Origin: Meiothermus rufus DSM 22234
GTDB taxonomy: Bacteria; Deinococcota; Deinococci; Deinococcales; Thermaceae
Length of the DNA: 58,685 bases
Assembly (NCBI RefSeq): GCF_000423425.1
Contig: NZ_AUHY01000013.1
Coordinates: forward strand, 1 to 58,685
Direction: 5' to 3'
Shown: in pieces, positions 45,665 to 58,685 of the stretch
Layout: each line of letters begins with the position of its first letter
Numbering within the stretch: position 1 is the first letter of the stretch
Made by a program: the position numbers and the translations under genes
Notes under the pieces: model-generated
The model's database searches: none
What the model saw: only the letters and a program-made list of their open reading frames with translations
What the model was told of the DNA's origin: nothing

Positions 45665-48600
45665 CTAGCGCACCTGCACCCGGTAGAAGAAATACCCCTC
45701 CTCACCAGGCAGAAGGGCCGGGGCCGGGCCTGTCCCATCAGGATGAGGCGCAGTGTTCAAAGCGCAGTAGGCCGCCAGGTTGAGGCTGATGGTGCTGGTT
45801 AGGCCCAGGTCAGGGTACACGGTGGTGCCATTGGGGCAGACCAGGGCCACCTCGCCGCCTCCCCCGTAGGCGTTTTGCACCAGGTCGGTGAAGAAGGGGA
45901 TGGGGTCGAAGAGCACCACGTTGAAGATGGGCTGGCTGCCAATGTTCTGGTAGGCAATCCTGTACTCCAGCACCTCCAATGGCCTCCCTCCGGCGCTGGC
46001 GGCAAAGGGGGTGCCCTGGGTTACGTTGCGCACTTCCTTGGTAAGCCTAAGGGTTCCCATGGCCACCGTAGTCGCGTCTACCAGAGAGCGGGACTCCACT
46101 ACGGAGGCGTTGTTGGTCCACTGCAAACTGGCCTGAAGGGTAGCCATATCCACCCGCCCATCCGGCACCCCCGCCGGAACCACTACCTGCACCTCTAGGG
46201 CGCAGGCTTTGAGGCTACCGTCGGCTTCTCGAGGCCAGGCCGCACCCACGGTGAAGCTAAGGGGTAAGGGAGTAAAGCTTTCCCCAGGGTCCCAGCTTCC
46301 ATTGCAGTTGGCATCGAACCGGGCCTGGTAAGCGAAGCTGGGCGCACCGGCCAGGCTCAGCGCGACGTTCCCCAGGGTTCCAGGCTGGAAGAGGTGGGCG
46401 TAGGTCAGCACCCCAGGGCTGGTGGCCTGGCCCGACTGGTCGGGCCGGAAAGTGCTATGCCGTACCAACCCGAAGTTGCGGGTCAGATTAGCGGGCAGTC
46501 CGCTCGCTGCCCCCAGGCTCACCACCGCCCCAGAGGAGGTGGGACTAGTGGCCGCGCTCCAGCTGGTGACCGGTGTGGCCGCGCTCCCATCGTTCCAGCC
46601 CGTGGCCGGGCGCGCGGGGTGGGAGAGGGTTACGCTTCCCCAGGCGTAGGGGATCCAAAGGAGGTAATTGCCGTTCCCGTCCGTGGTGGCGGTACGGGTG
46701 TTCGTACCGTCTGTGGCCGCGAGGGTTACCCCACCCCCACCCCGCTCGGTTCCATCCTGAAGGGCGTTATTAGGGATGCCCCCTCCTTCCCCGTCGTCGT
46801 AGAAGACCCTACCGCTAAGCCGGGTACCGCGGAAAAGACCAAAATCCTGCCCGGTCAGGTTGCTATTCAAAGTCAGGCTACGCACTCCACCCGTGGGGTG
46901 GATAAAGTGCCAGCTGGAGGGCGGGTTGGGCGTGGTATCGGCAGGGTTGTTGTTATCGTCCACAATAAGGGTGTAGCTGCCAGGGGCCAGGTTGGGGAAG
47001 CTGTAGGCCCCAGTGCCGGGGTTGACCGTAGTCACCTGAACCATACTTCCCCCCTGCAAGAGCTTCACATAAACCGTAACCCCGCTGCTCCAGTCCTCGC
47101 CCCCGTCGCGCACGCTGTTGGGCTGGAGGTCGTGGTAGACGAAGCCGGAAAGGGTATACCCCACCACCGTCGAGCTAACCGAGACCGAGGCGCTTTGGCT
47201 GAAGCTAGTACCCAGGGTCTGGCTGTTGTAGCTGATCTGGGCGGTGTTGGTGAGGGTCTGCCCCGCTGCACTGGGGAGCACCTGCACCCGGAAGCGCACC
47301 GTGGCCCCCTGGGTTGGCGGGATAAGGCCGCCCGAGGTGGCGTTGGCCCCTACCCCTAAGCGGAAACGCACCCGGTTGTTGGCGCTATCGTACTCGGCGA
47401 TGTCGTCCCCAGGCGTATCGGACATGGAGCCAGTGGGAGCGGTTGCCGCATTGGAAACCACCACCAGACTGCCCGGCACGTACTGGGTGTGGGCCGGAAT
47501 GGGATCGGTGAGCACCACGTTGGTGGCCCCGTCCAGACCAATGTTGGTGAAGCTTAAGGTGTATTCCAGGATATCCCCCAGCAGGACATCCCCCCCGTTC
47601 AGGTCCTGGACGGTTTTGGTAAAAGTGGTAATCAGGTCGGGGACGTAGAGGTCAATCTGGAAGGTCAGAACGGTGGGAAAGTACACATCCTGGGTACTGG
47701 TGAACTGGAGGGTGGCACTGGTGGCCCCGTTGGGAATGCGGCCCGTGGCGTCTACGATATCGGCATCCACCGCCATCTGGTTGATGTAGTCGGGGGTTTT
47801 GCTGCTGAAGCGGGTTCCCAGGAGAGACACCGAGGAGTTAAAGAAGTTGTTGGCGGGGTTCTGGCCGTCGCTAAGGGCACTACCGTTGAGCAGAAGCTGG
47901 TCACCATTAATCCCGCCATCTCCTTCGAAGGCCACCGCTCCAACCCGGGCATTCACGCTACCAAAATAGGGGGCCAGAAAGCCGGAAGGGGTGATGGTCA
48001 CCGGGTTGCCACTGCTAACTACGGCCAGCCCATCGTAGACCACCAGATTGCGCAGGGACTGGGCGGTGTCGCGGTAGACCACCACCAGGCTCCAGCCGGC
48101 GTAGAACCCCAGGCCGTCGTTTCCCGTGGCGGCCAGAATCCCCCCCACCCAGTAGGTGCCGTTGCCCGCAGCCTGCACCAGGCTGGTCAGGTCGGCAAAG
48201 GCAGTATAGGGGCGGCTTGTATTGGTGCCCTGGGTCGTAATGGTGCCCAGTAAGGTGCCGCTGATGCTCTGGTAACTGCCGCTGCCGGGGGGTTTGACGG
48301 AAATTTGATTGCGTCCAGCCGCGTTTTCACCAGCCCGCGCCCCCCAGTACAGCCTGGCAAAGAGTATCTGGCTGCCTGCGGGCAGGCTCAGGGTGGCGCT
48401 AGAGGAACCGCCCCGCCCAGTGGGCCAGGCTGGGGCGCTGGCATCGGCATTGAAAAAACGCATGGAGCGGGTTGTGTCTAATTGGTTCGATGAGGTAAGA
48501 ATCGTATTGTTCGCCGCAGGGTTATTCATCACCGCAGAATCGCAAGCTGTATTGGTGGCATTCGGATAGCACATGAGGGTGTTGGCTATCAGGGTGATGG

Positions 48601-48700
48601 CCCCCCGGTCGTTGGTCTGGTAGCGAATGGCAAAGGGGGTGACCACCTGGGCGAAGGCCAAACTAGAAAAGAGCAGAAGGGCCAGTGCGCGTTTCACCAT
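45665..48700 (-). CDS. Secreted DUF11/SdrD-B-like repeat surface protein
   Basis: A 1011-residue exported protein: signal peptide 1-18 (MVKRALALLLFSSLAFA), an N-terminal domain (about 20-390) with LFARLYWGAR and GLGFYAGWSLVVVYRD, then DUF11 units (ILEYTLSFTNIGLDGATNVVLTDPIPAHTQYVPGS with FRVQV at the end). Two prealbumin/SdrD-B-like folds follow (LSGFVYHDLQPNSVRDGGED; LSGRVFYDDGEGGG), and a last DUF11 ends FFYRVQVR. A calcium-loop-like DANCNGSWDPGE is present. No LPxTG or anchor helix was seen. The ATG overlaps the stop of the barrel gene (ATGGTGA), so it is translationally coupled; longer frames are rejected. Role unknown. Confidence 0.85.
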   Translation of the reverse strand: MVKRALALLLFSSLAFAQVVTPFAIRYQTNDRGAITLIANTLMCYPNATNTACDSAVMNNPAANNTILTSSNQLDTTRSMRFFNADASAPAWPTGRGGSSSATLSLPAGSQILFARLYWGARAGENAAGRNQISVKPPGSGSYQSISGTLLGTITTQGTNTSRPYTAFADLTSLVQAAGNGTYWVGGILAATGNDGLGFYAGWSLVVVYRDTAQSLRNLVVYDGLAVVSSGNPVTITPSGFLAPYFGSVNARVGAVAFEGDGGINGDQLLLNGSALSDGQNPANNFFNSSVSLLGTRFSSKTPDYINQMAVDADIVDATGRIPNGATSATLQFTSTQDVYFPTVLTFQIDLYVPDLITTFTKTVQDLNGGDVLLGDILEYTLSFTNIGLDGATNVVLTDPIPAHTQYVPGSLVVVSNAATAPTGSMSDTPGDDIAEYDSANNRVRFRLGVGANATSGGLIPPTQGATVRFRVQVLPSAAGQTLTNTAQISYNSQTLGTSFSQSASVSVSSTVVGYTLSGFVYHDLQPNSVRDGGEDWSSGVTVYVKLLQGGSMVQVTTVNPGTGAYSFPNLAPGSYTLIVDDNNNPADTTPNPPSSWHFIHPTGGVRSLTLNSNLTGQDFGLFRGTRLSGRVFYDDGEGGGIPNNALQDGTERGGGGVTLAATDGTNTRTATTDGNGNYLLWIPYAWGSVTLSHPARPATGWNDGSAATPVTSWSAATSPTSSGAVVSLGAASGLPANLTRNFGLVRHSTFRPDQSGQATSPGVLTYAHLFQPGTLGNVALSLAGAPSFAYQARFDANCNGSWDPGESFTPLPLSFTVGAAWPREADGSLKACALEVQVVVPAGVPDGRVDMATLQASLQWTNNASVVESRSLVDATTVAMGTLRLTKEVRNVTQGTPFAASAGGRPLEVLEYRIAYQNIGSQPIFNVVLFDPIPFFTDLVQNAYGGGGEVALVCPNGTTVYPDLGLTSTISLNLAAYCALNTAPHPDGTGPAPALLPGEEGYFFYRVQVR

Positions 48701-51700
48701 CCACCTCCCAGGAAGTCGAGGCGCAGATACAAGCCGGGGGCGGTATCGGGGGTGAGGCCGGTAAAGCCGCCGAAGGTGTAGCCCAGGTTGAGCCACAGGC
48801 CCTCCAGCAGGCGGAAGCTGGCCTCGAGGGCCAGGGCCGTGGCCTCGGTCTGGGTGCCGGGCTGGAACTGGTAGTAGGCCGCCGCCCCCAGGCCCAGCCA
48901 CTCGGTAAAGTAATAGTTCACCCCCAGACCAAGCTGGTAGGTGTGGCCCGCCGGGTCGTCCAGCATGAGCCGGTAGGCCAGGCTGGGGCGGAGTTGGAAC
49001 GAGAGGCCAGGGTGGTAGCTGGTGGCCAGGGCCCCCTCGAGGGTGCGCGCCTCCCCGCTTTGCAGGCGGTGGTAGGAGAGCAGCGAGACCTCGCGGCCCC
49101 GCAGGGCATAGGCCAGGGTGAAGCGGCCCTCGGGGGAGGGCAAAAGCTGGTAGGTGGCGTCAAAGGAGAGGGTTTGCTGGGCGTCGAGCTGGCCCGAAGC
49201 CCCGGCCCGCACCACCACCTTGGGCTCTCTTGCCAAAGCGGTCTCGCCGCCTAGCGTAGCGGTGAAGCCCTCGGCCTGGTAGCGCAGGGCCAGGCCAAAA
49301 GCGGCCTGATCTGCGCCGCTGGCGAGGCTGCGCTCGTAGCCGGCGCTGGCGTTCAGGCTCCAGTGGGCGTCCAAGGGGAGCGGGGCCTCGAGGCCAAAGC
49401 GGGCCCGGTTGCCCTCTCCGCTCACCCCGGGAAGCTGGTAGGAGAGGGCCAGGTTGGCCGCCCCCAGCTTCTGCTTGAGGCCCAGGGTGCCGGCAAAACC
49501 CAGCCCCCAGGTCTGGAGCAGATCGGCCTCGGCCATCAGGTTGGCATCGAAGGTATAGCGGGCGCTCAACCGGGTGGTGGCACTGGCAGCCAGGCTAAAG
49601 GGCTGGGCGTGGGTTAGCTCGCTTTTGAAGGAACCTTCCTGGAGGATGAGCCGCCCCAGGGCGCTGGTGGCGGCGTTTTCCCAGGTGTAGCCCAGCCCCG
49701 CCCCGATGGAGAAGGCCGGGCTCAGGCGGCGGATATACAAAAGGCCGGTGCGGTTGGTCTCGCTGGCCTGGTGCTCCAGGGCAAGCCTATCGGCCTCGCT
49801 CAGCCGGTAGCTCAGGCGGCCCTGGCCCTGGAGCCTATTTTCGTAGGACAGGCTGGCGCTGGACTCCAAAGCCCCGCTTTGGCCGGAGACCTCGAGGCCA
49901 AACCGCCCTTGGGGTTGGCTGGCCATCTGGCTATAGCTGACCTTCAGGCCAAAGCCCGCCCCCTGGTAGGTGGCCTCGGCCCCGTAGCGCCAGGCCTCGC
50001 TCGGCAGGAGGGCGGCCCCTGCGGCCAGGCTGAAATCGCCCAGCCTCAGGCGGGCCCCCAGCCCGTACCCCAGCTCCCGCGCCCCGCCCAGCGGGGCATA
50101 GACCACCCGCAGCCGCACCGGCTGGAAGTCGGAGGTAGTAGGCCAGAGGGGCTGGGCCAGGGTGAGGGTGCCGCTGGGGGCATCCAGCACGTAGTCCTTG
50201 AGGCGCTCGAGGCGCACTTCCTGCGGGCCAATCTGCAAATACACCTGCTCGCTCCCCGCTTCGGCAGGCCCGGAGAGCTTGTAGAAGCGGGTACCATCGG
50301 GCAGGATCAGGTCGGTTTTGCTGTTTGTCGGCACAAAGCCCACGAAGCCCCGCAGCGCCAGGTCGCCCCGGGTTTCCAGGCGCAAAGCGGTGGCCTGGGG
50401 CAGCCCGCTTACCCCGAAGACGCCGAGCCCATCGGCGTAGTAGCCCAGGCTGAAGCGGGCGTCGTCATAGCGCAGGGCTACGGGCTCGTCGGAGCGCAAA
50501 GGCAGGGTGGGCTCATTGCCCGCTCCGGTGAGGGGGAAGCGCCCGGTAGGGTCGGGCTCCTGCCGCAGGCCGCTTTTCACCTCGGGCTGGCCCTGGCTAT
50601 AGCGCAGTGCACCATCCAAAGCCCCACGCAACACCCCCTCCCCCAGGGGGGCTTCCAGGTAACCCCGCCCCAGGCCAAACCCCTCTATGCCCTCGCCCAG
50701 GCGGACGCCCAGGCTGCCCTGGAACTGCCACAGCCGGTTTTGCTGCCCTACCACAAAGAACTCGGCCTCCTGAACTAGCTCGCCAAAGGCCAGCCGCAGG
50801 CGCAAAAGGGTGGGGGTAGGGGTCGGTTTGAGCCGCAGAACTACCCGCCCATCCCGCAAGAGGAGCTGGTAGCCGGAAAGGGTGGGGAAGGCGTCCTCGT
50901 CCAGCGGCTCACCCGAGGTTTCTAGGGTCAGCGGGCCAAAGCCTGAGAGCAAGCCCAGGGCATCCAAGGCCCGCACCTCTAGCTCCAAGGGCGTGCGCCC
51001 ATCGGCCTGCAGGCGCAACGGACGCACCTCCAGCCGGGTGGGGCTGCCGACCAGGAAAACCTCAACCCGGTCGGAGCCTGCCGCGGTCTCCACTTCAATC
51101 AGGTTACGGCCCGGTTGCAGGGGCAGGCCGTAGTACTCCAGCCGCTGGATGCCTGTACCGCTATCGGAGGTGGCCTGGCCTAAATTTTTAGCCTCCACCG
51201 CCTCGCCATTCACGCTCAGGCGGGCCTCCAGGCCCAGCGGCATCTCTAACACCACCCGCGCCTTGTCCACGCGGAACAGGGTGCCCGGCAGGGGCTCCTG
51301 GATAAAGCCCTCGCGCCTTGGCACGACCAGTCCCTGAGCTTTGGCATACTCGGCTTTGCCGATGCGCCCCTTTAGGTAAACCTCCCGCTCCCCCAGCCAA
51401 AGGGTCAGGGTAGGTTCCTCCAAGGCGCCCAGGGCCTCGCGGTGGCGAAGCTGGTAGGTAAGCTCCCCTGTAGCCTGGTAGGGCAGCTCGAAGAAAAGCC
51501 GGCCTTCCGCATCGATCCGGGGATCGGGGATGGGCCTGCCATCCAGGCGGGCCGAGCCGGGTTCGTAGCGGGCCTCCTTGGGCGGAAGGTGGGTGAGCAG
51601 CAGGCCCTGGCCGAATCTGCCGCTGGCCTCGGCCTCTACCCTAAAGTCCAGGCGAACGGTGGAAAGACGCTGAGGCTCCAGGATGGGCAGGGCGGTCAGG

Positions 51701-54207
51701 GTAGCCCTGACCGGGAAGGAGGCCGGGGTATTGCCCACAAAGGCCGCAACCTGGTTTTCCAAGAGGCCCGCCCGGCCCGCCTGGCCTCTGAGTTCAAGCA
51801 CCCGTTCCTCGCCGGGCTGCAAGGTAAAGCGCAGCTCGCCGGGCAGCTCTACTTTTAGCCCTTCATCGGGGGACTCCTGGAGCCGTACCTCGAGGGGGTG
51901 GTCGGTGGGGTTGGCCAGACGGAGGGTGAAACGGGCCTCACCCCCCACCAGTACCCGTGCGGGGGCCACGGTTTTCTCCAGGGGCAGAAGCACCCGGCGC
52001 AGGCGATCCGGGGCGCTGGGGTTGCCCCCGTTGGAGCGGAGATGGGCCAGGAAGCCCCCCTCTGCCGCCGGGCCAAAGCGCACTCGGGCGGTGTAGGTGT
52101 GGGTGGTGGCCTCGCCTGGGGCCAGGGTGCCCATAAAGGCAGGGGGGCTTTCCACCTCGAGCCACTCGGGGTAGGTATCCTCCAGGGTATAGGTGAGCGG
52201 GGCCTGGCCCGCATTGCGCACCATCAGCCTCACCGTCACCTCTTCCCCCGGTACCACTACCCGCCTGTCCAGCGAGCGGGAGAGTTCAGCCAGCGGGCGC
52301 AGCACCTGTACCTCGGCCTGGGCCTGGGCTAAGGTCTCGCCCCGGGCATCCAACAGCCGGGCGGTGTTGGTCAGGGTCGGGGGAGCCTCGGGGCTGAGGC
52401 GGGCGGTCAGCTCAAAGACCCGCTTCTCGCCTGGGGCAAGGGTGAGCGTCTGATCCAGGGGCTCTCCCTCCAAACCCGGGGCCAGGCTGTCCAGAAGCCG
52501 CACCTGGCCCGCTTCGTCGCCGGTGTTTTGTACCACCAGGCGGTAGGCCACCTCGCTGCCCACCGCGGCCCTGGGGGTGAGGGCTTCCTTGCGCAAGGTG
52601 AAGGTGGCCGGCTGGATGATCTGCAAGCTCCCCCGATCCCGCAGGCCCCAGGGGGAAAGATGGCCTTCCACCTGGGGTTCGCCCTTACAAACCGCCTGAA
52701 CCGAAAGGCTAAGGCGTACCGGGCGGTCCTTGCGCAAGGGGGCCACAAGGCGAGGGGCCTCCTGGGCTTCCAAGCAGGGGGGAAGCAACAGCTCAAGCTC
52801 AGCGGGCAGCAGGTTGGGGAAGGCGGTCTCGGCCCAAAGCGTGAGGGTGGCGGTCTCCCCTACGCGCAACAGGGGCTTTTCCACCTCCAACCGAAGCCTG
52901 ACCTCCGGGTAAACCCGGAAGCGCACCCGCTGGGTCTCGCCACTGGCCAGGCTTACCGCGTCCGGCCCTTCGACCCAGGCCCCTTCGATTGGGGTAGCCA
53001 AAGGGTAGCGGCCCGGGGCCACGGTCAGACGGGCTTGGCCCTGGCGCAGCTCCACTGCCTGTTCGCCGACCTGTACCCGTAGGTCAAGGGGTTGTTCGCC
53101 CTCCGGCAGCACCAGCCAGGCCTCTAGCTCGAGGCTGGCCTGGGGCGGCAAGGGCTTTTCCACCACAAAACGAACCTCTCCCCCGGCACAGCCAAAGCGG
53201 GCGGTTCGCTCGTCTATAGCCTCGCCCCCCTGTACCTCGGTGCGCACCAGGCGGTAGCCCTGGGGCAGCTCAGGCAGCCGCACGGTGCGGAGTTTGTCCC
53301 CTTCCTGAAGCAGCGGCAGTGCCAAAGGCTGGCCCTCTCGGTCGACCACCGTGGCCCTGACCGGGCGCGGCGGCACCACCCGGAAAGCCTCTTTTTCCAC
53401 CTCCATACAGGCATCTATCCGCACACCAATGGTGTTCGAGTGCTGGGTTGCCCCCCTGGGCTGGCGGAAACCAAAGACGATGGCGCCCGGCTGTCGGATA
53501 TCGTAGTAGGCCCAGTCCCGGTCGCCCGAGATGCTTCTGGCCTCGAGGCGCCCATCCGGCAGGCGCACCCGGGCTTCCATCTCTTTGGGGCCGTCCTCGT
53601 CGTAGAAGCCCACCCGTAGCGGCAACACCTCGGGGCTTACCTTGAGCACCAGGGGCTCGAGCCACTCAAAGCTGCGATCGTTGAGATTGATTTGACTGGG
53701 GCGGATATCGAAGAGCTGCGAAGTGGGGTCGATTAGAAGCCCCGCCGCCTCCGGCTCACTGGTCTGGATGCGGTAGCGGAAGGCGTTCTTACCCAGGCCG
53801 TAAAACCGGCTCTCGATATGGTACACCCCGGGCTCCACCGGGCCGCGGAAAAAGAGCGCCCAGCGGTGGGGCTCTACCCCGAAGGTTTCCTGGGCCAGCA
53901 CCACCCCATCGCGCACCAGCACAAACTCGGCCCGTAGCTCGCCCTGGCCTTTGTCGTAGCGCTCGTCTCCCAGCTCTTCCTGGCCCTTTAGCCCCCGGCG
54001 GTAATCCGCTGGGTCAAAGCCGGGAGAGTAGATTTGCAGGTTGAGAAGGGTGGGTTTGTGCACCACCACGCTGGCCCGAAGAGCCTGAATCTCCCAGCCC
54101 AGTCGGTCGCCCGGCACGATGCCCAATAGATCGGTGCGGCTTTGCGCCAGGCCCAAAGCCAGGGCCAAAGGCCACAAGAAAAGAAGGAGGCGGGGCCAAA
54201 GGCTCAT
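48694..54207 (-). CDS. Giant DUF11/CARDB-repeat outer-membrane beta-barrel protein
   Basis: A protein of 1837 residues, the longest in the window. Signal peptide 1-21 (LLLFLWPLALALGLA). Then about 1200 residues of Ig-like modules (ATFTLRKEALTPRAAVGSEV, YRLVVQNTGDEAGQVRLLDSL, VTVRLMVRNAGQAPLTYTLED and others) and a C-terminal region of about 500-550 residues of short alternating amphipathic strands with Gly/Tyr turns (AYRLMLDDPAGHTYQLGLGV, YTFGGFTGLTPDTAPGLYLRL). It ends in Trp, as outer-membrane barrels end in an aromatic residue. This predicts a surface or periplasm-facing stalk on a large barrel, perhaps a secretion or anchoring pore for its neighbours. Starts in overlap (ATGA) with the 512-residue DUF11 gene. 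No named family recognised. Confidence 0.8.
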   Translation of the reverse strand: MSLWPRLLLFLWPLALALGLAQSRTDLLGIVPGDRLGWEIQALRASVVVHKPTLLNLQIYSPGFDPADYRRGLKGQEELGDERYDKGQGELRAEFVLVRDGVVLAQETFGVEPHRWALFFRGPVEPGVYHIESRFYGLGKNAFRYRIQTSEPEAAGLLIDPTSQLFDIRPSQINLNDRSFEWLEPLVLKVSPEVLPLRVGFYDEDGPKEMEARVRLPDGRLEARSISGDRDWAYYDIRQPGAIVFGFRQPRGATQHSNTIGVRIDACMEVEKEAFRVVPPRPVRATVVDREGQPLALPLLQEGDKLRTVRLPELPQGYRLVRTEVQGGEAIDERTARFGCAGGEVRFVVEKPLPPQASLELEAWLVLPEGEQPLDLRVQVGEQAVELRQGQARLTVAPGRYPLATPIEGAWVEGPDAVSLASGETQRVRFRVYPEVRLRLEVEKPLLRVGETATLTLWAETAFPNLLPAELELLLPPCLEAQEAPRLVAPLRKDRPVRLSLSVQAVCKGEPQVEGHLSPWGLRDRGSLQIIQPATFTLRKEALTPRAAVGSEVAYRLVVQNTGDEAGQVRLLDSLAPGLEGEPLDQTLTLAPGEKRVFELTARLSPEAPPTLTNTARLLDARGETLAQAQAEVQVLRPLAELSRSLDRRVVVPGEEVTVRLMVRNAGQAPLTYTLEDTYPEWLEVESPPAFMGTLAPGEATTHTYTARVRFGPAAEGGFLAHLRSNGGNPSAPDRLRRVLLPLEKTVAPARVLVGGEARFTLRLANPTDHPLEVRLQESPDEGLKVELPGELRFTLQPGEERVLELRGQAGRAGLLENQVAAFVGNTPASFPVRATLTALPILEPQRLSTVRLDFRVEAEASGRFGQGLLLTHLPPKEARYEPGSARLDGRPIPDPRIDAEGRLFFELPYQATGELTYQLRHREALGALEEPTLTLWLGEREVYLKGRIGKAEYAKAQGLVVPRREGFIQEPLPGTLFRVDKARVVLEMPLGLEARLSVNGEAVEAKNLGQATSDSGTGIQRLEYYGLPLQPGRNLIEVETAAGSDRVEVFLVGSPTRLEVRPLRLQADGRTPLELEVRALDALGLLSGFGPLTLETSGEPLDEDAFPTLSGYQLLLRDGRVVLRLKPTPTPTLLRLRLAFGELVQEAEFFVVGQQNRLWQFQGSLGVRLGEGIEGFGLGRGYLEAPLGEGVLRGALDGALRYSQGQPEVKSGLRQEPDPTGRFPLTGAGNEPTLPLRSDEPVALRYDDARFSLGYYADGLGVFGVSGLPQATALRLETRGDLALRGFVGFVPTNSKTDLILPDGTRFYKLSGPAEAGSEQVYLQIGPQEVRLERLKDYVLDAPSGTLTLAQPLWPTTSDFQPVRLRVVYAPLGGARELGYGLGARLRLGDFSLAAGAALLPSEAWRYGAEATYQGAGFGLKVSYSQMASQPQGRFGLEVSGQSGALESSASLSYENRLQGQGRLSYRLSEADRLALEHQASETNRTGLLYIRRLSPAFSIGAGLGYTWENAATSALGRLILQEGSFKSELTHAQPFSLAASATTRLSARYTFDANLMAEADLLQTWGLGFAGTLGLKQKLGAANLALSYQLPGVSGEGNRARFGLEAPLPLDAHWSLNASAGYERSLASGADQAAFGLALRYQAEGFTATLGGETALAREPKVVVRAGASGQLDAQQTLSFDATYQLLPSPEGRFTLAYALRGREVSLLSYHRLQSGEARTLEGALATSYHPGLSFQLRPSLAYRLMLDDPAGHTYQLGLGVNYYFTEWLGLGAAAYYQFQPGTQTEATALALEASFRLLEGLWLNLGYTFGGFTGLTPDTAPGLYLRLDFLGGGW

Positions 54208-55742
54208 GGGTACCTCCAGCGCACCTGGGGGTCGGTGAGGAAGGCGGGCCCGGGAAGGTCGTAGATGAGGGTTTCCTGCCCCTCAAAGCGTTCGAAGCGG
54301 AAGACCCGTTCTCCCCCCTGGGGCAGCGGGTCGGTGAGGGTCAGCTCGGGGAGGGCCTCGAGGCTCTTTAGCTCGAGCACCACCCGCACCCCTTGCGGCA
54401 GGGGGAGGAGCTTCTTACGCACGGTCAAGGGGCCAAAGGTCAGGGTGGTCTCCCGTAGGGCCTGCACCAGGCCCTCGGGCGGCTCGAGGGGGAAGTCGCT
54501 TTGGGTCAGGCCCTCCACCCAGACCCGGTGGTGGTAGCCCTCCCCCTGGGCCCCGGGATGGGGCCGGGGCTTGAAGGGGGCCGAGGCCAGCTCCAGTAGG
54601 AGCGCCCACCACCCCCCCACCATGTTGCGGAAGCCATACCGCCCCTCGGCATCGGTGGTGGCTTGTAGCCCATTGCCCAAAACCACCCGGGCCCCCGGCA
54701 ACGGCACATCCACCCCAGGGGTATACCGTCCGTCGCGGTCGACATCGAGGAAGACCCGGCCCACCAGGTTGTGCGGCGGGATAAACACCCCTGGCTCCAA
54801 GCGCACCAGGGCCGAGGCCCGGGCCAGCACCCGGAACTGGGCCCCTTCTATCCCGGTGGCCTGGGCAACATTCTCCAGAAGGTCACCTCCCCCGGAACCG
54901 ATGCGCATCTGGTAACGCACCACCAGGCGCTGCCCGGGGTCTAGCCGCAGGTTCTCCCAGACCAGCCGCCCATCCTGCACCGTTGGCTCGGCGGAGCTGG
55001 CCGTTCCCGGCAGGTAGACCAGGCCGGGGTCGGGGGTGTCTTCCAGCCGGATCAGGGCCTCTTCCTCGCCCGTGTTGATCAGGGTGATGGTATAGGTCAA
55101 CCGGTCGCCCGGTCTGGCCCGCGAGGGGCTTACCTCCTTGAGTAACATAACCTGGTAAGGCTTGCGCACTACCAGCCGGCTATAGTTGTCCGCATCCTGG
55201 CTTCCATCCGGGCAGGTGGCCGTCGGACTAAGGTGTAGCACCCCGCTGGCCCCCAGGGGAATGCCTACCTCTACCAGGATTTGCAGGCTCTGGCCCGGGC
55301 CGAGGGTGGCCTGGGTCAGGCCGGGCTCCCCCGGGTCAAGCTGCCCGTTTTCATTGAGGTCGTGATAGAAGGCCACGTTGCTGGGCGTCCAGGGCGCGGT
55401 GTCCCGCTGCCAGCCCAGGGCCAGGGTAAAGCTCGCGTTGCCCAGGTTGGCGAGCTGGTAGGCCAGGTACACCCTCTGCCCGGGAAACCCTCGAACCACA
55501 TAGGCGGGCACGTCGGGCGTACCGTTGGGGGTGACGGAGGGCACGCAAACCGCCTGCACCACGGTCTCCACCGGATTGGAAGAGGCTACCGGCACACCGC
55601 CTACAAACCCGATGGCCTGGTTGCGGATCACCGTACCCGCAGGGGTCGGTTGAGCCCAGGCCAGGCTGAGGGAAAAAAGCAGCGCCCCGCCAAAGCACCC
55701 GTGCAAAATTCGAGGCCAAATATGGGTTGGCAGGGAAAACAT
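54204..55742 (-). CDS. Secreted DUF11 repeat protein
   Basis: An exported 512-residue protein. Signal peptide about 1-30, cleaved after LSLAWA before QPTPAGT, then an N-terminal domain shared with the 898-residue protein upstream (about 170 residues, with the Ca-loop-like DLNENGQLDPGE), a DUF11 unit (SRARPGDRLTYTITLINTGEEEALIRLED), an SdrD-B-like fold (LVGRVFLDVDRDGRYTPG) and a C-terminal strand-rich domain. I chose ATG 55742, 7 nt below a TAACAT box. An alternative GTG at 55826 has a good SD (AAGGAG, 5 nt) and adds 28 residues, but it lies in a stem-loop. Coupled to the barrel gene by an ATGA overlap. Confidence 0.82.
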   Translation of the reverse strand: MFSLPTHIWPRILHGCFGGALLFSLSLAWAQPTPAGTVIRNQAIGFVGGVPVASSNPVETVVQAVCVPSVTPNGTPDVPAYVVRGFPGQRVYLAYQLANLGNASFTLALGWQRDTAPWTPSNVAFYHDLNENGQLDPGEPGLTQATLGPGQSLQILVEVGIPLGASGVLHLSPTATCPDGSQDADNYSRLVVRKPYQVMLLKEVSPSRARPGDRLTYTITLINTGEEEALIRLEDTPDPGLVYLPGTASSAEPTVQDGRLVWENLRLDPGQRLVVRYQMRIGSGGGDLLENVAQATGIEGAQFRVLARASALVRLEPGVFIPPHNLVGRVFLDVDRDGRYTPGVDVPLPGARVVLGNGLQATTDAEGRYGFRNMVGGWWALLLELASAPFKPRPHPGAQGEGYHHRVWVEGLTQSDFPLEPPEGLVQALRETTLTFGPLTVRKKLLPLPQGVRVVLELKSLEALPELTLTDPLPQGGERVFRFERFEGQETLIYDLPGPAFLTDPQVRWRYP

Positions 55743-55779
55743 GGCTCTAATGTTATTAATGACTCTTACGAAAAAGAGA

Positions 55780-55827
55780 AGTGCGAGAGCCGACGGGTTC
55801 ATTGCTAAGCTCACCGACTCTCGCACT
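55780..55827 (-). terminator. Hairpin with U-rich tail before the 512-residue DUF11 gene
   Basis: On the mRNA strand AGTGCGAGAG (55827-55818) pairs perfectly with CTCTCGCACT (55789-55780) around a 28-nt loop, followed by TCTCTTTTT. It could be the terminator of the upstream gene or an attenuator; it also buries the alternative GTG start. Confidence 0.6.
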
Positions 55828-55854
55828 GTAGCTCCTTACTCCTTTGGGTTCCAT

Positions 55855-55886
55855 TGTGGCCCGTCCCTCAAAGGGGGCGGGCCACA
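55855..55886 (-). terminator. Strong GC hairpin directly after the 898-residue surface gene
   Basis: TGTGGCCCG / CGGGCCACA, 9 bp, extended by CCC/GGG with a short loop, starts 7 nt after the stop codon. No U-tract follows, so it may stabilise the mRNA end or pause transcription. Confidence 0.65.
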
Positions 55887-55892
55887 GAAGGC

Positions 55893-58589
55893 CTACTGCA
55901 CCTGCACGCGGAAGGTAATGGTAATGCTCGCCCCAGGCGGCATCACATCCGCAGTGGTGATGGTGCTGTCGCTGTTGGTATCCACCGCCACGTAGAGGCT
56001 CTGCCCAGGGGCCAGGGACGAAGGCGCTGTGGTGCTCCAGGTGGTGCCGTCGGTGGAGTAGAGCACCTGGAACGTACCACTGAATCCACTGGCGCTAGCG
56101 CTGGCGCTTACGAAGGTGGTATAGGCCGGCAGCGGGTCGCTGAGGATCACCTGGGTCAGGTTGCCAGTGCCAATGTTCTGGGCCACCACGGTGTACACGA
56201 TCTGGTCGCCCGGGTAGGCCTGGCTACCATCGGCGGAGCGCACCGTGGAGGTGGAACCCACATAGCTCACCGCGCTCTTGCTAAGGCTCAGCTCCCCACC
56301 CACCACCGTGGTAGTCTCGGTGGCAGTATCGCTGGCGGTGGCGCTGCCCACACTGCAGGTAGCGGTAACGGTATTTACGTCGGTGCGCCCGATGGGCTGG
56401 CCCGCTGGCACGATGACCCGGACGTAGATGGTGAGGCTACCCCCATTGGCCGCTACAAAGACGTTGCCCAAGGCCGAGTACCAGTTGGTGCCGTCCGTGG
56501 AGTACTGGTAGGTCCAGCCGTAGCTGCCCCCGTCACCCGAGATGTTGCAGGTGGCGTCTGCGTTGGAGAGGTTGGTGAGGGTGTGGGTGTACTGGATGGT
56601 ACCAGGCGTGGTTGCGGTGCCCGAGCGGTTAGGCTCGAGGCTAATCTGGGCCACCAAGTTCACATCCACCGCGCCAAATATGGTGTCGCTCACGCTGGGC
56701 AGGGTGGTGCTGGTCACGGTGATGCTCACATTGTCGCTGGCGCCGGGGGTCGCATCTACCGGAGCAGCCCCCACCGGCACCTGCACGGCAGCGATGAAGC
56801 AAGCCGTGGCCCCTGCATTAATCAGGCCAGTGCTGTTCACTGGGGCGGGCGTTGGGGTATCCATGACCCCATCGCAGTTTGCATCAGGGTAAAAGACCAC
56901 GCTCCAACCAGCCGGCAGGCTCGAGGTGAAGTTGTACGTATCGGGGTTGGCCCCGGTGTTGCTCACCTCGAAGGGGAAGTAGGCCACGCCGCCGGGGTTG
57001 ACCGCCGGGTTGTAGCCAGGACGGGTGTCGTTGGCCGGATCAGCAGGCTCGCCCCCTGAGGCACCATTGGTGTTATGGGCGGCATCCACCGAGTAACCCG
57101 AGACCACTGCGCTCACTGTATCCGTAGTGGTGTCGGACTGGCTGGGGTTGCCCTGGCTGGTAGCCGTAACGGTCAAACTGACGGGAGTAGTACTGGTGTA
57201 GCTAGCGGGAATGGTGCAGCGCAGGGCAAAGTTGTAGTCCGCGCCCGCAGCAATCGGGCCTACTGGGCCAGAGATGGGGGTGCTGAGGTCGTCGGCCAGC
57301 AGGGTGCAGACCCAGCCCGAAGGCGCCCCACTCACGCCCAGGCTGAAACTATCACTGGTGTTGCCGGTATTGCGCAGGGTGTGGCGGAAGACCACCGCAC
57401 TACCGCTATTGGCTGAGGCAATGGTCTGGGTATCGCCCGAGCGGCTCACGCTGTACCCGCCTGCGGTATAGCTACCCGAGGCTCCGGCCAGGGGGAAGGC
57501 GTAGGGCCCTACCGCCACGCTGTAGCTGGCGGCCACGGTGTTGTGAGTGCTGTTGGTGGTGGCGGTTTGATCGGTGCCGTTGTTGTAGCGCACCGTGGCG
57601 CTGTTGGTATAGGTAGTACCCGCCGGGGCAGAGGCTGGCACGGTAGCGCTAAAGCTGAAGGTGTAGGAGGCGGTCTGGGGGAAGAAGGCCCCACTCCCGC
57701 CAATGAACATCCCGATGGCAATGGTGCCGTTGCCGGTAAGGGGCAGGTTGCCTGGGGCCAGCGTGCTCCAGGTGGTGCCGTTGATGGTGTAGACGAAACT
57801 CACCGTGCCCGCCCCGGCGCTGCCAGTGGGCATGGCGCTCACCACAAGGCCACTAGGGATGACATCGGCCACCAGAATACCGCTGCCCGTAAGCCCAGGT
57901 ACGCTCACCCCTTGAGCAGCGCTCCCACCGGTGTTGGCCCCGCTGATGGTGTAGGTGATAGAGCTTCCAGGAGCCACCGCACCGGAGGGGCTGGCTGCCT
58001 TGGTGGCGGTCAGGGTGGCGGCGGTGCTCACCACAGCCCGGGCCCAGTTGTTGGTATCGGTCACGCTAGGGCTGCCCGCTGAGGCCCCCTGTAGGTTGAT
58101 GTTGGCGAACTGGCCGTTGGTGGCTGAAGGGGGAATCGTGCCGGCCAGGATGACGCAGGCCGACTGCCCCATGCTCAAGGTAACACTGGTGATGGGCGTG
58201 GTCTCGCCCGGATCGATAGTGCCGTTGCAGTTGGCATCCAGGTAAAGCGCGGTTCCGCTCAGATCGAAGGCATCGCCGCTATCCTGGAGGGTGGTCAGGT
58301 TGATGGTATCGCTGCCGTTGCCGGTATTGCTGACGGTGTAACTGAAGTAAACCGGTGCCCCAGGTAGCCCACTGCGGGTTTGGCCAGGGGTTGCCGGGGC
58401 GTTACCATCAGGGGTGATGCTGAAGCTATAGACCTGCTGCACCACCGTAATGACCTGGTTGGAGGTGGTGGTGCGGGGCTGGCCCGCCGAGTCGATATAG
58501 CTGGCCGAGGCCTGGTTGGCAATGTTAGTGCCGGCGGGGGTCTGCTGGGCCCACACCGCCCCAAGCATGACTAGAGCGGCTATCCACAA
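55893..58589 (-). CDS. Secreted DUF11-type surface protein, 5' end lost to an IS
   Basis: An exported Ser/Thr/Asn-rich repeat protein of about 898 residues made of five or so Ig-like/DUF11 modules (YFSYTVSNTGNGSDTINL, VFRHTLRNTGNTSDSFSLGV, FEVSNTGANPDTYNF, YTVVAQNIGTGNLTQVILSDPLP), ending ITFRVQVQ. DANCNGTIDPGE and DANCDGVMD are calcium-loop-like. The N-terminus visible is only the hydrophobic half of a signal peptide (LWIAALVMLGAVWA, then QQTPAGT). The IS edge is 5 bases before the TTG at 58589, and the frame upstream runs into the transposase stop. The true start and promoter are therefore lost or on the far side of the IS; a weak TTG start is the only option, and the copy may be inactive. 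Confidence 0.75.
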   Translation of the reverse strand: MWIAALVMLGAVWAQQTPAGTNIANQASASYIDSAGQPRTTTSNQVITVVQQVYSFSITPDGNAPATPGQTRSGLPGAPVYFSYTVSNTGNGSDTINLTTLQDSGDAFDLSGTALYLDANCNGTIDPGETTPITSVTLSMGQSACVILAGTIPPSATNGQFANINLQGASAGSPSVTDTNNWARAVVSTAATLTATKAASPSGAVAPGSSITYTISGANTGGSAAQGVSVPGLTGSGILVADVIPSGLVVSAMPTGSAGAGTVSFVYTINGTTWSTLAPGNLPLTGNGTIAIGMFIGGSGAFFPQTASYTFSFSATVPASAPAGTTYTNSATVRYNNGTDQTATTNSTHNTVAASYSVAVGPYAFPLAGASGSYTAGGYSVSRSGDTQTIASANSGSAVVFRHTLRNTGNTSDSFSLGVSGAPSGWVCTLLADDLSTPISGPVGPIAAGADYNFALRCTIPASYTSTTPVSLTVTATSQGNPSQSDTTTDTVSAVVSGYSVDAAHNTNGASGGEPADPANDTRPGYNPAVNPGGVAYFPFEVSNTGANPDTYNFTSSLPAGWSVVFYPDANCDGVMDTPTPAPVNSTGLINAGATACFIAAVQVPVGAAPVDATPGASDNVSITVTSTTLPSVSDTIFGAVDVNLVAQISLEPNRSGTATTPGTIQYTHTLTNLSNADATCNISGDGGSYGWTYQYSTDGTNWYSALGNVFVAANGGSLTIYVRVIVPAGQPIGRTDVNTVTATCSVGSATASDTATETTTVVGGELSLSKSAVSYVGSTSTVRSADGSQAYPGDQIVYTVVAQNIGTGNLTQVILSDPLPAYTTFVSASASASGFSGTFQVLYSTDGTTWSTTAPSSLAPGQSLYVAVDTNSDSTITTADVMPPGASITITFRVQVQ

Positions 58590-58593
58590 AGAT

Positions 58594-58685
58594 AGGACTT
58601 ACGCAGTTGGCTGAAGGATGTGGAGGGGATGGGCGAGATAACTTCGTATTGCCTCGCGAACAATGGACGCCTTGGCCTCGTACCA
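58594..58685 (-). mobile_element. Insertion sequence, right part, inverted copy
   Basis: Identical over all 92 visible bases to 243-334, in opposite orientation. The terminal sequence AGGACTTACGCA begins at 58594. The remainder of the element lies beyond the window. Confidence 0.85.
58599..58685 (-). CDS. Transposase C-terminal fragment (window edge)
   Basis: The last 28 residues (WYEAKASIVREAIRSYLAHP onward to QPTA) of the same transposase as at 3-329, ending in TAA at 58601-58599. The rest continues to the right of the window. Confidence 0.8.
   Translation of the reverse strand, partial: WYEAKASIVREAIRSYLAHPLHILQPTA

Follow-up and report, generated by a model that had tools for sequence, protein, structure and literature searches.

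A split DUF11 domain and a giant outer-membrane barrel in a conserved gene unit of Meiothermus rufus and its relatives: a probable donor-strand-assembled surface fibre

Chaperone-usher pili are assembled from a tip subunit which has no donor strand (FimH, PapG), shaft subunits which have both a donor strand and a groove (FimA), and a terminator which has no groove (PapH). Archaeal threads, TasA, bundling pili and the type V pili of Bacteroidota are also filaments joined by donor strands; to our knowledge, none of them has an outer-membrane barrel of its own together with a base subunit. The T9SS SprA barrel has 36 strands. SpyTag/SpyCatcher is an engineered split of an isopeptide domain.

The DUF11 domain was renamed CLIPPER after the crystal structure 9IFR, in which Lys715 and Asn806 form a bond and Asp748 completes the triad (PMC12617251). 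Natural intermolecular autocatalytic bonds are known in phage capsids and also in a helical hairpin fold; bond formation between chains therefore has a precedent (PMC12617251). The paper on archaeal threads mentions donor strands as well as isopeptide bonds between molecules (PMC9715654).

The window, a stretch of 58,685 nucleotides from Meiothermus rufus DSM 22234, carries four genes (A to D), all on the minus strand, which probably encode a surface fibre assembled by donor strands, together with a cognate outer-membrane barrel. Gene A (55893–58589, minus strand, 898 codons) is a DUF11/CARDB-like array with N-terminal donor strands and a truncated DUF11 domain, the acceptor, at its C-terminus. 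Gene B (54204–55742, minus strand, 512 aa) has an N-terminal donor, DUF11 and SdrD_B-like domains and a conserved C-terminus, LTDPQVRWRYP. Gene C (48694–54207, minus strand, 1837 aa) consists of a signal peptide, a conserved N-domain, DUF11/Ig-like domains and a giant C-terminal beta-barrel. Gene D (45665–48700, minus strand, 1011 aa) has a variable N-terminal module, DUF11 and SdrD_B domains and a C-terminal truncated DUF11 acceptor, without a donor. The sizes of B, C and D given in an earlier note on this DNA are confirmed, as are the overlaps of 4 bp (B/C) and 7 bp (C/D); the frame of A lies 150 bp upstream of B.

The same note assigned Ig-like DUF11/CARDB or SdrD-B folds and signal peptides to all four proteins. 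DUF11 (PF01345) indeed exceeds the Pfam cut-off of 24.6 bits in each of them (A 36.7, B 32.2, C 32.3, D 29.9), SdrD_B does so in D only, and signal-peptide-like N-termini are found in B, C and D, that of A being cut by an insertion sequence in this window. The signal peptides of A, B and D are not followed by the lipobox cysteine of type V pili. The C-termini read FRVQVQ, RVQVR and RWRYP, without the LPXTG motif and hydrophobic tail of sortase pili. Rfam gave no match.

A fifth conserved gene, E, precedes A in the unit; it was missed because the window contig ends there. The 96 bases above the TTG "start" of A (58590–58685, no strand assigned) are the end of a multicopy insertion sequence, which occurs in 21 copies in this genome, many of them at contig ends, and the TTG itself lies at the junction. 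On another contig, C2 (locus L091), gene E (389–883), a single truncated DUF11 domain, is directly followed by a Shine-Dalgarno sequence and ATGAACCGACTCTTT, the true start of A, and then by transposase-like sequence. The 21 copies and this arrangement indicate that the insertion sequence entered the signal-peptide region of A. The supposed four-gene cassette is therefore a real unit, to which E belongs as well, and the 898-residue relative is present as a frame, but not as an intact gene. In this strain A may have lost its function; translation may also start at the TTG despite the insertion. Relatives have an intact A with a normal signal peptide. Besides E and the insertion sequence, the earlier note had overlooked the split DUF11 ends and the isopeptide residues described below.

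The E-A-B-C-D block recurs throughout the order, among relatives in Thermus, Meiothermus and Deinococcus, and A-B-C-D are for this reason genes of one unit and not a chance association. Of 50 Thermaceae genomes, 37 have C, as do 60–62 of the 111 genomes of the class, and the order A-B-C-D is kept in most of the loci examined, in several families. The neighbourhood survey that had been proposed found the genes together: among the 37 C-bearing Thermaceae genomes, 36 have A, against none of the 13 C-less ones (Fisher p = 4e-11), the sole exception being G020, whose C lies on a short broken contig. D occurs in all 37, plus a remnant in G022 (Fisher p = 1e-10). E is likewise found in 36 of these genomes, and G038 has it although it lacks C. 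The tight gene association is thus borne out, and the idea, already put forward, that an outer-membrane barrel has surface fibre proteins as its partners is supported. In one family (G055, G056) the gene found upstream of A is D-like, and D is on another contig in G006 and G011.

The complete set is carried by the megaplasmid pTT27 of the tractable Thermus thermophilus HB8 (E-A-B-C-D: TTH_RS10905, RS10910, RS11750, RS10920 and RS10925). Its sibling HB27 has kept only a short B and C (TT_RS10775 and RS10780) and has lost A and D (L080 compared with L079); the pair is a natural partial deletion, useful for genetics. In G038 (L092), which has E without C, E is identical to that of HB8, and in G022 short pieces of A and D remain (contig G022:C7), which suggests decay in Thermus. 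Deinococcus plasmids carry the block in part, C relatives included; on the two that were inspected, the order is likewise a small gene, other members of the set, then C.

The ends of these proteins were compared with an HMM of 166 positions, for which complete DUF11 domains from the interior of A and D were used. The C-termini of all 34 A proteins match it from about position 7 to 127 and then stop, and D C-termini match its first part. A N-termini match it in 32 of 34 cases, mostly from about position 128 (median 128–158). For B N-termini the match is weaker (29 of 40 at E <= 10); they align with the A donors over the whole motif, and a core motif is common to both. C N-termini give no match, and D N-termini only two weak ones among 30. 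The single domain of E matches the A C-terminal domain in a profile comparison (E = 2.4e-12), and the two end at the same column of the alignment, 128 of 170. These matches show that A and B begin with the strands that are absent from the ends of A, D and E. At the level of sequence, a DUF11 domain is thus split into complementary parts.

In the window, the A donor (residues 16–52, QTPAGTNIANQASASYIDSAGQPRTTTSNQVITVVQ, 58434–58544, minus strand) corresponds to the last DUF11 strands, about positions 128–158 of the 166, and includes the Asn discussed below; an internal domain of A reads "..ATVPASAPAGTTYTNSATVRYNN" where the N-terminus reads "QTPAGTNIANQASASYIDS". The A acceptor (residues 778–898, 55896–56258, minus strand) is a DUF11 domain without its last strands, which contains Lys784 and Asp818. 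The D acceptor (residues 880–1011, 45668–46063, minus strand) has invariant Lys888 and Asp932 and ends in FFYRVQVR. The B donor covers residues 31–66 (QPTPAGTVIRNQAIGFVGGVPVASSNPVETVVQAVC, 55545–55652, minus strand). The C-terminal domain of B (residues 430–512, 54207–54455, minus strand; Lys443, Asp471, Asp504) seems, by eye, to be self-complete: its end, LTDPQVRWRYP, appears to resemble a final strand in which Asp would replace Asn. Both ends of B are kept when the protein shortens by loss of central domains, from about 1000 to about 370 aa (most relatives have about 900), as in the window, with its short B of 512 aa, and in L004, L045 and L046, where the central repeats are lost.

Joining the C- and N-termini of A raised the Pfam score from 42.4 to 45.7 bits (42.2 for a shuffled control), and joining the A N-terminus to D raised DUF7619 only, from 15.0 to 19.8. 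These Pfam/NCBIfam gains are small, and the internal-domain profile is far clearer. A PDB sequence search with the split domain returned nothing relevant and no match to 9IFR.

D and E thus have an acceptor without a donor, A has both, and B has a donor but no evident groove. Since grooves and donors are in part found on different proteins, pairing must take place between chains. This argues against an explanation to which we give little credence, namely that C is an autotransporter-like protein or scaffold which presents the Ig-like half of its own chain, the other four proteins being ordinary secreted adhesins whose ends pair within one chain or with C. Such a role would suit the DUF11/Ig-like array which precedes the C-terminal barrel of C, an order also found in autotransporters, but the N-terminus of C has no match to a DUF11 end. 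The autotransporter barrel family (PF03797) has no match in C or its homologues.

The residues of the isopeptide triad follow the same division. In internal DUF11 domains the Asp (column 52) and the Asn (column 139) are invariant (48 of 48). The terminal domains carry only Lys and Asp, and the Asn is on the N-terminus of the other subunit. The acceptor Asp is found in 33 of 34 A and 28 of 28 D sequences, and the first-strand Lys in 31 of 34 and 29 of 29, respectively; L077 lacks the Lys, its presence in L062 and L063 is uncertain, and Asp is replaced by Ala in L066. The donor Asn (column 139) is present in 30 of 30 A donors, an invariance partly due to selection, as the donor set was gathered with a motif that includes this Asn; the A and B frames without it are cut, split or misstarted at the N-terminus. 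In each of the 30 E sequences the Asp column is occupied by Ile, Leu or Val. The placement of the three residues and the loss of Asp in E are read directly from the alignments. Since the acceptor provides Lys and Asp and the donor provides Asn, the subunits may be joined covalently: D-A, A-A and A-B joints could carry a self-forming isopeptide bond, and an E-A joint, for want of the Asp, could not.

The domain family and the positions of Lys, Asp and Asn correspond to those of CLIPPER (9IFR, PMC12617251), but the bonds described there are within one chain, whereas here the Asn belongs to another subunit. As in SpyTag/SpyCatcher, one reactive residue comes with a peptide strand and the other two with the domain that this strand completes; unlike that pair, the present split is natural, concerns a CnaA-like DUF11 domain and not a CnaB domain, and lies in subunit ends where it would serve chain growth.

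The joint was modelled with AF2 from a natural in-frame read-through, A(660–898)-linker-B(1–197), folded with its relatives and with the stops read as Gln. The model has a mean pLDDT of 87.5 and a pTM of 0.70. The linker is disordered (pLDDT at or below about 65), and the B donor (model residues 321–360) is predicted to be ordered, in strands, with a pLDDT of 94–97. Next to a disordered linker, these confidence values, the pTM and DSSP suggest that the B donor is docked on the domain of A. The fold matches of this model are Ig-like adhesins and pilins, such as antigen I/II C-domains and the CfaB trimer, which is a fusion of major pilins.

We propose that the subunits, which carry Sec signal peptides, would be assembled in the periplasm. 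The N-terminal donor of A would insert into the groove of D, and further A units, or just one, would then join A to A. With its donor and without an evident groove, B would terminate the chain beside C, as the base, so that the product would be D-(A)n-B, with the variable N-terminal module of D as an adhesive tip. At each joint, Lys and Asp of the acceptor would meet Asn of the donor, and a covalent bond may then form with no enzyme involved, much as in SpyTag/SpyCatcher but in a natural system. E, which is one acceptor domain without the Asp, would hold the donor strand of A reversibly, as a cap or chaperone. C, with Ig-like domains in front of its barrel, could export or hold the fibre, in an usher-like role. 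Polymerisation, covalent bonds, polarity, export through C and adhesion are all features that we infer from these parts.

The proposed system would work like chaperone-usher pili: Ig-like subunits which lack strands would be completed by the N-terminus of the next subunit, the ends of D, A and B follow the logic of tip, shaft and base, and an outer-membrane barrel is encoded in the cluster. It is not a member of that family, because no usher (PF00577) is matched by C (E <= 1) or by 42 barrel sequences (E <= 0.01), and no PapD chaperone or fimbrial Pfam family is matched among A to E. Its subunits, unlike those of chaperone-usher pili, are multidomain arrays of 500–1100 aa whose joints may be covalent; E, as the putative cap, is an acceptor, whereas the chaperone donates a strand; and the predicted barrel has about 38–40 strands, against 24 in the usher. 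The archaeal threads, TasA, the bundling pili and the type V pili share the donor strands but belong to different domain families.

The barrel was predicted from residues 850–1837 of C with 41 relatives. The AF2 model predicts it with good confidence, at a pLDDT of 86, and contains about 38–40 long strands from about residue 1144 to the end (barrel domain, residues ~1144–1836, 48700–50778, minus strand), in agreement with the large barrel claimed earlier. Residues 1297–1362 (50122–50319, minus strand) form an insert between barrel strands ~8 and ~9 (DSSP), which might act as a plug. Pfam gives a weak outer-membrane barrel match in C. The nearest PDB folds are LptD and ushers, including FimD and PapC, with low TM-scores; a PDB sequence search with C and the barrel profile returned nothing relevant. 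SprA is likewise a very large single-chain barrel, but its Pfam family has no match in C or the barrel sequences, the PDB gave no sequence match, and SprA is not among the top 50 fold matches listed. According to the model, C is an unusually large barrel, and no closely related structure has been solved. The terminal Trp, presented earlier as a feature of the barrel, was rejected as a signature: relatives end otherwise, most of them in YLRLDxFGG-R or similar.

An RNA hairpin (55856–55885, minus strand, z = -4.0) lies directly 3' of the stop codon of A. A hairpin is found at this position with z <= -3 in 27 of 32 loci (mononucleotide shuffles), its position being kept and its sequence changed. 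By analogy with pilus operons, it suggests that A is made in excess of B, C and D, and such unequal expression would speak against the fixed stoichiometry which had been deduced from the coupling of the genes. The hairpin also weighs against a non-polymeric stalk, a long adhesin in which D, A and B, each present once, would be linked end to end by donor strands and placed on C (1:1:1:1). We regard such a stalk as unlikely, since the A and B donors also share their core motif, although D and A have different acceptor sequences, which could make D-A and A-B joints specific, and the tight gene linkage would fit it.

In a growing D-(A)n-B fibre, the tip would be formed by the N-terminal module of D (residues 18–350, 47651–48649, minus strand), which is DUF3344-like here and an L-type lectin or another domain in some relatives. 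The C-terminal half of D is found in nearly all homologues, the N-terminal half in about 70%. The L-type lectin-like domains of L048 and L056 have E-values of 2e-11 and 5e-12 and score below the Pfam cut-off, and some D homologues contain a beta-helix region. This exchange of modules fits a tip adhesin. It is less compatible with an S-layer or envelope-anchoring layer, in which the proteins would tile the surface with C as anchor and without fibres: Ig-like domains are known in S-layers and SbsB is among the weak fold matches of the A-B model, but the genes are absent from 13 of 50 Thermaceae, unlike a structural S-layer, and we consider this arrangement very improbable.

No described pilus system with these parts was found, in line with the earlier note, which knew of no named system of this make-up. 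The literature gave no report of such a fibre, and the titles, abstracts and text passages covered, on DUF11 in Thermus, Deinococcus and pili and on the HB8 genes, contain no description of the system. Only tentatively, at somewhat less than even chances, we suggest a new class of Gram-negative pili, in which donor strands with self-catalysed isopeptide bonds between subunits would give a covalent fibre, no sortase being needed, with a barrel of about 40 strands as the site of assembly and an acceptor-type cap, E, instead of a chaperone. If the proposal is true, thermophiles gained fibre strength by dividing an isopeptide domain between subunits, as engineers did with SpyTag/SpyCatcher, and paired the split domain with one of the largest single-chain barrels predicted; DUF11 would have a function, open to experiment, in linking subunits. 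For protein ligation, too, natural split domains that withstand heat would be of use.

Two further observations concern relatives of single genes. Weak E-like single-domain proteins occur in G099, G100 and other members of the class where C was not found. Some Meiothermus relatives (G007, G018, G011 and G019; L070–L073) have a second, diverged B-C pair, whose long B-like gene encodes 966–2288 aa or more and ends in ITDPDLLWEEV or similar.
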